Below are positions 54,292 through 58,147 of a stretch of DNA of 64,000 bases, in pieces. The stretch is from a virus, in the IMG/VR virus record IMGVR_UViG_3300009184_000043, positions 1 through 64,000 of that record; one strand, given 5' to 3'. The notes beneath the pieces were generated by a model. It had not been told where the DNA came from. It saw nothing but the letters and a program-made list of their open reading frames with translations, and did no database searches. Positions within the stretch are counted from its first letter, which is position 1; each line of letters starts with the position of its first letter. A program made the position numbers and the translations under genes.

Positions 54292-54881
54292 AGCCTTTTA
54301 AAGATCAATTTGAAGATTATAAATTAAATGTTTCGGGATTATCATCGCTAGCGGAGGAATCTTTTATGTTCTGGTTTAAAAATTTTGTAAACCAAAAGAG
54401 TCAATTCAATCCTCAAGGTTTTTTACCCGGTAAATTTTATTCTTTTGAGTACGATGACGTATTGGAGAAGAATAAGAAATTCATAAATAAAAGACCAGTT
54501 ATATTTTTTACTGGATTTATGAATTATGAGAATAAGCAGGCTTTTAGTGGTGTAGATATAATATTAATGCCTCCTATTTTTAGATTAGCATTTTTTTCAA
54601 GGATACAATCTGTTTATCAGGATTTAATAGAATCTAATATGAAAAAAATAGAAAGCGGAGAATCGAGGGGACAGATCCCGCTTAAAACCGATTACGAAAC
54701 TTTTGATGTTATTATGAAGGGGATACCTTATAAAAATACATATAGAGTATGGGATTTAAAAAAAGTTCGCGATGTAATGGAAATTCCCTACGAAGATTGG
54801 ACTAGAATAATATATCTACATACTCGGTCAATTCAAGGGACCCCGATAGAAGAGATATATACTAAAAACTCAAAGATCTAA
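54288..54881 (+). CDS. Unknown protein conserved in position before the portal
   Basis: A 197-residue protein. It has a segment GKFYSFEYDDVLEKNKKFIN, then RPVIFFTGFMNYENKQAFSG and VDIILMPPIFRLAFFSRI, reminiscent of uncharacterised T4-like phage proteins with a Y-x-F-x-Y...R/FP-x-I pattern. It overlaps gp4-like and portal genes by 4 and 1 bases, so it is co-translated with them. It is likely a head or neck component; the function is unknown. Confidence 0.55.
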   Translation: MKPFKDQFEDYKLNVSGLSSLAEESFMFWFKNFVNQKSQFNPQGFLPGKFYSFEYDDVLEKNKKFINKRPVIFFTGFMNYENKQAFSGVDIILMPPIFRLAFFSRIQSVYQDLIESNMKKIESGESRGQIPLKTDYETFDVIMKGIPYKNTYRVWDLKKVRDVMEIPYEDWTRIIYLHTRSIQGTPIEEIYTKNSKI

Positions 54882-56500
54882 TGGCTGGATTTACAGACGG
54901 AAATAAAACATTTTTTAGCTCTATCGTTGATAGTATTAAAAAGGTTAGTAGCTTCGGAATGGCTTATGAGGATCTTGTTATAAAGAATTCTCAGGCTGTA
55001 GGTGTTTCTGAAGCTCAATTCTTACAAAAGGGTGGAATTAAAGACGAGGCTTTCCTTTTCGGATTAAGAAGAGCTGATACGTCTACCAAGCAATACATAG
55101 CTTATTTCGATAAGGATTACAAAAACAAAAGACATTATTTACAAGGATTTGGACAGAACCCAGAGATTGAATTTATCTTAGATACAATATGTGACGAATC
55201 TATTGTATACGACGAAAAAAACTTCTGGGCTTATTTCTCTTTCATGCAACACGAAGATGTTGATGAGGAAACATACAAGAAAGTACAGAAAAGATATAGG
55301 GAGATATACAATCTATTCGGATTTAACCAAGATATTTTAGCTTGGCATCTTTATAGAAAATTTTTAGTAGAAGGTATTTTATCATTTGAAATAGTTTTTG
55401 ATAAGAAAGGTAAGAATATCGTAGGATTTAAAGAATTAGATCCTGCATCTCTCGTACCAACAGTAGAACAACAACCAGATGGAAGCTACATTGATATATG
55501 GATACAATATCCGGACAATCCAGCATTAACTAGAAAGCTTTACGATTCTCAGATAATTTATATAAGTTATGCAAAAGGAGGCGGTACATCATCTAGAGTA
55601 AGCTACGTTGAAAGAATGATTAGATCTTTTAACCTTCTTAGAATTATGGAACACACAAGAATCATATGGAACGTGATGAATTCATCATATCGTATGGCAA
55701 TGACCGTTCCTATTGGTACTAAATCGCCGCAAAAAGCTAAACAAACACTTGGAGAACTTATGTCTATCTACAAAGAGGATATAAGATTAAATACGGACAG
55801 TGGAGAATTAACAGTAGACGGAAGACCAAAAATACAATTCTTCAAAAACTATTTAATGCCTTCGTCTCCTAACGGAACTCCTGATATACAACCTTTAGCA
55901 GGAGCTGGTGATGCAACAGCATTTAGCGACACGACAGCATTAAAATATTTTGCTAATAAGCTCCGAATGGATTCCAAAATTCCCGTAACACGATTCGGAA
56001 GAGAAGAATCTGGATCAGAGGGTACAATTACATTTGCTGCAGAAGGGGTAGATCAAGAGGAAATCAGGTTTGGTAAATTTATTAACAGATTAAGATCTAT
56101 TTACCAGGATATACTTATGAAGCCTCTATGGGTTCAATTCTGTTTAGATTTCCCTGAATTAAAAAAAGATTACATTCTTAAATCCGAATTTGGACTAGAC
56201 TATGTTAAGGAGAACATGTTTAGGGAATCCAAGGATATGGAAGTAATGACTGCAAGAAAAGATCAGGTTATTAAAATATCAGGACTTAAAAATTCTGAAG
56301 GGAAAAACTACTTCAGTATGGATTTCCTTATAGATAGATTCTTAGGTATGACTAATCAGGATTTATTAGATAACAAAAAAGCTAAAGAAAAAGCTGCAGA
56401 AGCAAAAAAAGAAGCAGAGGGAGCTACGGGAGCAGAAGGAGCTACAGGAGCAGAAGGAGCTACTGAAGAAGAAGGCGGAGGCGAAGAATTCAAATTATAA
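54881..56500 (+). CDS. 20: Portal protein A, gp20-like
   Basis: A 539-residue portal protein (T4 gp20 is 524). Key blocks are KQYIAYFDKDYKNKRHYLQG (residues about 60-80), ILDTICDESIVYDEKNFWAY (about 96-115), and the stem/clip region SYVERMIRSFNLLRIMEHTR with WNVMNSSYRMAMTVPIGTKS. It ends in a Gly/Ala/Glu repeat (GATGAEGATGAEG). The portal dodecamer is the DNA gate and nucleates prohead assembly. A second, clearly homologous portal gene follows after 3 bases. Confidence 0.9.
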   Translation: MAGFTDGNKTFFSSIVDSIKKVSSFGMAYEDLVIKNSQAVGVSEAQFLQKGGIKDEAFLFGLRRADTSTKQYIAYFDKDYKNKRHYLQGFGQNPEIEFILDTICDESIVYDEKNFWAYFSFMQHEDVDEETYKKVQKRYREIYNLFGFNQDILAWHLYRKFLVEGILSFEIVFDKKGKNIVGFKELDPASLVPTVEQQPDGSYIDIWIQYPDNPALTRKLYDSQIIYISYAKGGGTSSRVSYVERMIRSFNLLRIMEHTRIIWNVMNSSYRMAMTVPIGTKSPQKAKQTLGELMSIYKEDIRLNTDSGELTVDGRPKIQFFKNYLMPSSPNGTPDIQPLAGAGDATAFSDTTALKYFANKLRMDSKIPVTRFGREESGSEGTITFAAEGVDQEEIRFGKFINRLRSIYQDILMKPLWVQFCLDFPELKKDYILKSEFGLDYVKENMFRESKDMEVMTARKDQVIKISGLKNSEGKNYFSMDFLIDRFLGMTNQDLLDNKKAKEKAAEAKKEAEGATGAEGATGAEGATEEEGGGEEFKL

Positions 56501-56503
56501 AAA

Positions 56504-58147
56504 ATGGCTGGATTTTTAGATAACATAGGTAAATTTAACCCAAACGTATCAAGAATACTAAAAACAATTAGTGGACTTGGATCATTTGGTATGGATTACA
56601 AAGACATGGTAATTCAAGACTCTATGGCTATTGGTATATCCGAAGCTGATCTTAGAGAAAGATTTGGATTCAGTGCTGATGATGAGGACTTTATCTATAG
56701 TATAGCTGCACAGGATACTACAAATAGAAAATACATTGCATACTTTGATAAAGATTATCCTTTCAAAAGGGACTTCTTAAGAACATTTGCATTAAATGCT
56801 GAAGTAGAATACATTTTAGACACTATTTGTGATGAGGGCATAGTATACGATGAAAAGAACTTCTTTTGTCACAATGCGATGCTTAGTATGGATTTACAGG
56901 ATGATGTAATAAAAGCTCTTAGAAAGAATTTTAGAAAATTATACGTACTACATAATTTTGCAAACGGTTTAACTGGATGGCAATACTTTAGACAATTATT
57001 AGTTGAAGGATTCTTAGCATTTGAAATAATATATTCTAGCGACGGTAAAGAAATCGTAGGTTTTAAAGAATTAGATGCTATAAGTCTTACTCCAGCAGTA
57101 GAGAAAAAAGCTGACGGGACTAGAGAAACTATATGGTGGCAATATTACGGAGAAACTACTAGACAAAGAAGATTGCTAGATGCACAGGTTATTTATATCT
57201 CTTATGCTAAAGCAAATACTGTTTCTAGAACTTCCTACGTTGAACGTCTTATTAGATCTTATAACTTATTGAAGATCATGGAGCATTCCAGAATTATTTG
57301 GAACGTTATGAATGCTCAGTACAGAATTAAGATGACAGTTCCTATTGGTAGTAAGTCTCCACAGAAGGCAAAAGAAACTTTAGGAGAGCTTATGTCTGTT
57401 TATAAAGAGGACATTAAACTAGATACATCATCAGGTGAGCTTGCTATTAACGGTAGACCAGATTTACAATTCTATAAGAATTACCTATTTCCCCAACAAG
57501 GAGGAGATTCGGTTAAAGTTGAAACTATAAATGCACAAGGTCCAAACTTAAACGTAATGGATTCGGTTCTTTATTTCTACAATAAGCTAAGACAAGATTC
57601 TAAAATCCCATACAATAGGTTCTCATCTCGATTTGGTGTAGGTGCTAACAACACATTCCATACTGCTGCAGATGGTGCAGAAAGAGACGAGGTTAGATTC
57701 TCTAAGTTCATTACACGATTAAGATCAATATTCCAAGAAATAATGGTTAAGCCATTATGGATTCAAATGTGTCTTGAATTTCCTCACCTAAAAAATGATA
57801 CTGAATTTAGAAGCCAAATAGGTATTAAGTTTGAAAGCGATAACACATTCGGTGAATCTAGAGAAATAGAACAATTAATTAAGAAGATAGATTTTGTAAC
57901 TTCACTAGGGGAGATTAAAGAAACAGTTAACGACGAAGAGGTACAATATTTTGATCAGAATTTCCTTATTGAAAGATGGCTAGGACTTCCTAATGATGAT
58001 ATCCAAATGAATAGAACATATCTAGAAAAGGACAAGGAAGAGGGCCAAGGAGCAGCTACCGGAGCAGCACCAGCAGAAGCACCAGCAGAAGCAGCACCAG
58101 CAGAAGCAGCACCAGCAGAAGGTGAAGCACCCGCAGAAGGGGCATAA
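56504..58147 (+). CDS. Portal protein B, gp20-like paralogue
   Basis: A 547-residue portal homologue of the gene before it; homology runs end to end. It shares RKYIAYFDKDYPFKRDFLRT, ILDTICDEGIVYDEKNFFCH, SYVERLIRSYNLLKIMEHSR and the clip/stem blocks. It too ends in a low-complexity Ala/Glu/Pro tail. Both copies look intact with no lost motif. Either the portal ring is built from two subunits or one copy serves a different place, for example a neck or a distinct capsid. Confidence 0.9.
   Translation: MAGFLDNIGKFNPNVSRILKTISGLGSFGMDYKDMVIQDSMAIGISEADLRERFGFSADDEDFIYSIAAQDTTNRKYIAYFDKDYPFKRDFLRTFALNAEVEYILDTICDEGIVYDEKNFFCHNAMLSMDLQDDVIKALRKNFRKLYVLHNFANGLTGWQYFRQLLVEGFLAFEIIYSSDGKEIVGFKELDAISLTPAVEKKADGTRETIWWQYYGETTRQRRLLDAQVIYISYAKANTVSRTSYVERLIRSYNLLKIMEHSRIIWNVMNAQYRIKMTVPIGSKSPQKAKETLGELMSVYKEDIKLDTSSGELAINGRPDLQFYKNYLFPQQGGDSVKVETINAQGPNLNVMDSVLYFYNKLRQDSKIPYNRFSSRFGVGANNTFHTAADGAERDEVRFSKFITRLRSIFQEIMVKPLWIQMCLEFPHLKNDTEFRSQIGIKFESDNTFGESREIEQLIKKIDFVTSLGEIKETVNDEEVQYFDQNFLIERWLGLPNDDIQMNRTYLEKDKEEGQGAATGAAPAEAPAEAAPAEAAPAEGEAPAEGA

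Follow-up and report, generated by a model that had tools for sequence, protein, structure and literature searches.

The window analyzed here, a 64,000-nucleotide stretch of DNA comprising positions 1 to 64,000 of the IMG/VR virus record IMGVR_UViG_3300009184_000043, encodes two full-length portal proteins of the T4 gp20 type in tandem, referred to below as A and B. This twin portal is a constant feature of one lineage of uncultured phages, and represents a known family (PF07230) in a new arrangement. Sequence comparisons indicate that a gp20-type portal gene was duplicated in tandem long ago, on the stem branch of that lineage, to give the pair, and they suggest that the portal ring of the lineage is built from two kinds of subunit. 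The two genes and the spacer between them are as follows.

54881..56500, + strand: portal paralogue A, T4 gp20 type, 539 amino acids, ATG to TAA; PF07230 at 195.8 bits, PHROG 213; clade A in the tree
56501..56503, + strand: spacer AAA (3 nucleotides) from the stop of A to the start of B; 2–11 nucleotides in relatives
56504..58147, + strand: portal paralogue B, T4 gp20 type, 547 amino acids, ATG to TAA; PF07230 at 209.5 bits, PHROG 213; clade B in the tree

The proteins A and B are 49% identical over 516 aligned columns. Both match the PF07230 family (Portal_T4) at full length and far above the family cut-off of 22.9 bits (A: E 1.4e-57, profile positions 11–431 of 433; B: E 1e-61, positions 9–432 of 433), and both match PHROG 213, "portal protein", across most of its profile. 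The whole record, a viral fragment of 68,744 bases, contains exactly two portal matches, A and B, and the finding is not a product of chance. A read-through fusion of the two, which share a frame in the window with one TAA between them, is not supported, because the spacer varies in relatives (2–8 or 11 nucleotides) and the A/B frame is therefore not conserved.

Distribution of the portal pair

The IMG/VR database was scanned with A, B and deeper queries, and genome contigs were scanned as well. At least two portal open reading frames (ORFs) were found at 250 loci, many of them overlapping, which yield 68 distinct pair sequences; a further 117 loci have one portal ORF. Every locus of the twin clade with a single ORF lies at a contig end, and the pair is present in every twin-clade locus with enough flanking sequence. 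Where a lone portal is flanked by at least 1.7 kb on each side, as at 70 loci, the locus always falls outside the twin clade, and none of the 70 exceeds 55% identity. The order is A then B in all pairs, and TAA terminates A at 129 of the 129 junctions read. The short spacer suggests translational coupling, and translation of A and B is probably coupled. An in-frame stop splits portal A at a single locus, L003 (positions 2523–2525), and is either a sequencing error or a rare inactivation.

Among other phages, a tblastn search of INPHARED (50,697 phage records) placed A at 1333 places in 1331 records and B at 2128 places in 2126 records. Among the matches listed, a second portal place occurs only in two INPHARED entries of 735,411 bases, and in the one of these that was searched it is a C-terminal piece of about 60 residues. 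This candidate second portal, in the 735 kb phage LR756501, was rejected, as it amounts to the C-terminal match inside a 101-amino-acid frame; the short, isolated match (LR756501.1, 15166–15351, − strand; locus L142) lies away from the full portal. T4-like phages in INPHARED have, as a rule, a single portal. An initial sequence-only reading of the window had described two intact tandem portals with conserved cores 3 bases apart and had set them against the one gp20 of T4-like phages; the place counts bear out the latter statement, and the coordinates, the PF07230 and PHROG 213 matches and the conserved columns described below bear out the former.

Record searches of LR756500, LR756501, LR756502, LR756504, Lak-A1, PAU and PTm1 found one full-length portal each, as did searches of the whole records or contigs of the L371 and L370 assemblies and seven further single-portal contigs. 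The collections searched contain no isolate of the twin-portal lineage. No phage of INPHARED contains an A/B-type pair, the nearest being LR756500 at 44–46% identity, and a nucleotide search of positions 50000–64000 of the window against named phages gave no match. Two, duplicated or paralogous portals in a phage are not reported in the open-access literature searched, a scope outside which most subscription papers fall.

The nearest named relatives of the twins are the T4-type, single-copy portals of huge phages (LR756500, 462 kb; the Prevotella Lak phages; LR756501–504), at about 32–47% identity, most of which end in a hydrophobic residue. Unlike the twin lineage, each of the huge phages searched has a single full-length portal and a single tail tube. 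In the tree, the single-copy portals closest to the twin clade include those of the contigs L369 and L371, the latter a 254 kb contig in a Bacteroidetes metagenome-assembled genome. Both differ from that clade in having one portal and no channel-loop insertion, and the L371 assembly has one tail tube.

Divergence of A and B

The age of the pair was examined in a tree of 101 dereplicated portals, including 25 A and 28 B. The A proteins form one clade and the B proteins another (Shimodaira–Hasegawa-like approximate likelihood ratio test, SH-aLRT, 100 each), on stems of 0.83 and 0.74, respectively. The two clades are sisters (SH-aLRT 93), and every single-copy portal lies outside them. Some outgroup branches are very long, leaving the outgroup order unsure.

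Sequence comparisons indicate that A and B are both under portal-like constraint. For A, 7 usable pairs give a median ratio of non-synonymous to synonymous substitution rates (dN/dS) of 0.04, and for B, 5 such pairs give 0.055. The two diverge at an equal pace (mean non-synonymous divergence, pN, 0.11 for A and 0.12 for B; r = 0.98). Of the 117 columns that are conserved among single-copy portals, 89 are retained in A and 87 in B, so that neither looks like a relic. Both paralogues have been kept under selection and never lost in the clade, as expected of a heteromeric ring that arises by duplication.

With a fixed difference defined as at least 90% within each clade, 30 positions separate A from B; the single-copy consensus sides with B at 14 of them and with A at 5. 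A stretch of 29 columns spanning the inner clip and the channel loop holds 13 of the 30, a clustering with a binomial p of about 3e-9; that value treats the columns as independent and assumes a stretch fixed in advance, when in fact the stretch was not. The features that distinguish A and B, with T4 numbering from phmmer alignments and the loop limits of PMC4493910, are listed below.

55862..55939, + strand: inner clip and channel loop region of A (A328–353), cluster of fixed A/B differences
55892–55894, + strand: P338 of A, in place of the T4 T349 equivalent
55910–55915, + strand: two-amino-acid insertion in the channel loop of A (A344–345)
57494..57565, + strand: equivalent inner clip and channel loop region of B, which has Thr at the site corresponding to T349 and lacks the insertion
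55976..56041, + strand: tunnel loop of A (A366–387), less positive than that of B
57602..57670, + strand: tunnel loop of B (B367–389), basic
56486..56497, + strand: C-terminal motif EFKL of A, after a low-complexity linker; absent from B

The two-residue insertion is present in 25/25 A rows and in none of the 28 B or 44 single-copy rows. The equivalent of T349 is Pro in 25/25 A, Thr in 28/28 B and Thr in 32/44 single-copy portals, while that of R398 is Gln in 24/25 A and Arg in 28/28 B and in all single-copy rows. These channel residues, which are not a formal family criterion, are kept in B and not in A, and at all three sites it is B that has the ancestral state. The T4 channel loop (350–359) is a DNA-contacting constriction, and in SPP1 the substitution T319A, whose site corresponds to T4 T349, impairs both packaging and the stimulation of the ATPase (PMC4493910). 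The tunnel loop is about 3 amino acids longer in both A and B than in single-copy portals, and that of B is 3.5–4.4 charge units more positive than that of A. In T4, neighboring tunnel loops probably touch; they may help to assemble or set the 12-mer and seem to act as a valve (PMC4493910).

At the C-terminus it is A that resembles the single-copy portals. A hydrophobic residue occurs within the last two positions in 48/48 single-copy portals, 24/25 A and 5/28 B, and an EFKL-like terminal motif is found in 24/25 A and 0/28 B. B has mostly lost what A kept and A has lost what B kept, which points to complementary degeneration. Such complementary loss of ancestral features, affecting the hydrophobic C-terminus in B and the channel-loop features in A, is also expected of a heteromeric ring produced by duplication. 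The sequence-only reading had raised the possibility of a sub-functionalised portal and had named a copy inactive in relatives as evidence to the contrary. The relatives instead show strong purifying selection on both copies, with a stop inside A at L003 alone; together with the complementary fixed losses and a pair never broken in the clade, this supports sub-functionalisation at the level of sequence.

The only solved structure matched by sequence is T4 gp20, for both A and B (phmmer). T4 gp20 is also the top fold match of the AlphaFold2 model of A alone, a poor model built on a shallow alignment (predicted local distance difference test score, pLDDT, 55; predicted template modeling score, pTM, 0.47). 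In the low-confidence models, the order of elements fits a stem–clip–stem arrangement with channel loop, tunnel loop and long bent helix. The twins share with T4 gp20 (PDB 3JA7, 6UZC, 9MKB) the PF07230 family, gp2 and gp4 neighbors and, as far as these models go, the order stem, clip, stem, long helix. In contrast to the one gene and homododecamer of T4, the twin lineage has two genes whose products have diverged in the channel loop, the tunnel loop and the C-terminus.

Tail-tube duplication and neighboring genes

A second structural gene is also duplicated in the window, where two tail-tube paralogues that are 58% identical lie in tandem.

41100..41672, + strand: tail-tube paralogue 1; PHROG 45 and 32623
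41683..42261, + strand: tail-tube paralogue 2; PHROG 45 and 32623, with a short insertion

Two tandem tubes occur in 14 twin-portal contigs (the window, G001–G005, G009–G011 and G013–G017); of the other twin-portal contigs, G008 and G012 showed no match to a tube, and G006 begins partway through the tube region. In the 18 single-portal genomes searched, the L371 assembly among them, one tail tube apiece was found. The tandem tail-tube duplication belongs to the twin-portal lineage and only to it among those sampled. In the tube tree, paralogue 2 forms one clade (100/100) and paralogue 1 is not cleanly resolved, being monophyletic in 15% of bootstrap trees. Both copies are older than the split of the sampled twin-portal phages. 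The portal and tube duplications, because they fall in one lineage, represent one shared stem branch and not many independent events.

Besides the portals and the tubes, just one further paralogue pair, uncharacterized, was found in the window; sheath and terminase are single both in the window and in G001. The third pair is also in tandem (49734–50318 and 50318–50818; about 26–29% identity), and its first copy has no PHROG or Pfam match. A corresponding pair is found in G001 (102300–103528), and no match in the single-portal genome G007. The tail sheath gene (37653–41054) is long, encoding 1133 amino acids.

On the 5' side of the portal pair lie a late-sigma-like gene and the two head genes below, which provide the neighborhood (gp2, gp4) expected of a T4-type portal.

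53803..54291, + strand: gp4-like head closure protein; PHROG 218
54288..54881, + strand: gp2-like DNA end protector; PHROG 429

The window contains two different sigma-factor-like genes (46079–46696 and 53444–53800), the second of which sits near the portal genes. An antisense ORF (61044–61970, − strand) has by eye the look of a GIY-YIG homing endonuclease and overlaps the start of the next gene. The ORF at 990–5093 (1367 amino acids) consists mostly of Gly-Ser-Thr repeats with a non-repetitive C-terminal part, and is perhaps a fiber-like protein.

Possible assemblies of the portal ring

To our knowledge, solved portals are homo-oligomers from one gene. A homomeric ring has turned heteromeric by duplication with complementary loss in the fungal V-ATPase proteolipid ring, an unrelated protein that offers a works-like analogy for the twin portals; there, experiments demonstrated the mixed ring. 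The sequence-only reading had also raised a hetero-oligomeric portal, with which the data are consistent. The reading we favor, the case for which is evenly balanced, is that A and B co-assemble into one mixed, hetero-oligomeric portal ring as two obligate, complementary subunits of one portal vertex. Every step past two constrained, complementary genes is one that we infer, namely that both copies are in the virion, that they mix in one ring, in what stoichiometry they do so, and what the loops and tail do. By homology to T4 gp20, the canonical loop for the channel and for motor coupling would come from B, together with a basic tunnel loop, and A would contribute an altered channel loop, a tunnel loop of less positive charge beside that of B, and a hydrophobic C-terminal end toward the head interior. 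Complementary loss implies that neither copy covers all ancestral features, and the equal constraint on the two cores suggests that each still takes part in ring contacts. The difference in tunnel-loop charge fits loops that are neighbors, and coupled translation fits similar amounts of A and B. The ring would probably be pseudo-12-fold with A and B alternating (6+6), the simplest arrangement, which would give a 12-fold ring true 6-fold symmetry to meet the 6-fold tail. An extension of this proposal, in which an alternating A6B6 portal with two kinds of channel and tunnel loop joins a tail tube of two paralogous tube proteins to form a heteromeric axial DNA conduit, is tentative and rather doubtful; the portal and tube duplications map to the same stem branch within present sampling.

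Several points weigh against a mixed ring. The evidence for both copies is genomic, and separate homomeric roles could yield the same sequence pattern. The loop differences are stem-branch events and not many independent ones, and the mirrored divergences of A and B follow from shared genome history alone. The absolute loop charge shifts with where the loop is cut (−3.5 or +0.5 for A; +1.0 or +4.0 for B). Finally, an AlphaFold2 model of the A–B tandem, with the stop read through as a computing device, has a pTM of 0.33 on a shallow alignment and is uninformative on docking.

The main rival is a division of labor without mixing, in which B would be the homomeric packaging portal and A, with its retained C-terminal tail, would form a separate complex or serve as an initiator or adaptor in head assembly. 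The loss from A of the T349 and R398 equivalents that B kept speaks for such a split, as does the consensus siding with B at the larger share of fixed differences. However, A is as constrained as B in both conserved columns and dN/dS, which would be odd for a protein freed from the ring, and the fixed adjacency and order suggest coupled, similar output; on balance we regard this explanation as unlikely. Retention of the portal core in both proteins would also agree with alternative homomeric portals, each virion having either A12 or B12, for example in different heads or infection stages. This is improbable, given that the 2–11 nucleotides between the genes leave no room for separate control there and that complementary feature loss makes each copy alone incomplete.

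Complementary losses would likewise arise under a neutral ratchet, as would the parallel duplication of the tail tube, which is also a ring protein. In this scenario the ring became mixed without benefit, and each copy became indispensable through complementary degeneration, a form of the constructive neutral evolution that has been proposed for other heteromeric complexes. The fixed, clustered change in DNA-contacting loops and the shared lengthening of the tunnel loop look functional, although this is not a clean test, and we place the ratchet just after alternative homomers among the improbable explanations. A recent decaying duplicate or an assembly artefact would account for the stop inside A at L003; as a reading of the pair, pseudogene or artefact is ruled out by 68 distinct pair sequences in many independent contigs, the old split and a dN/dS of about 0.05 in both copies, and its likelihood is close to nil.

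By retaining two complementary portal subunits, the lineage offers a natural experiment for asking why the portal ring contains twelve copies. The twin portals also bear on how the 12-fold symmetry of a portal is matched to a 6-fold tail, and on the roles of the channel loop, the tunnel loop and the C-terminus. Furthermore, the linked tail-tube duplication lets one ask whether a whole conduit can turn heteromeric, either by adaptation or by a neutral ratchet.
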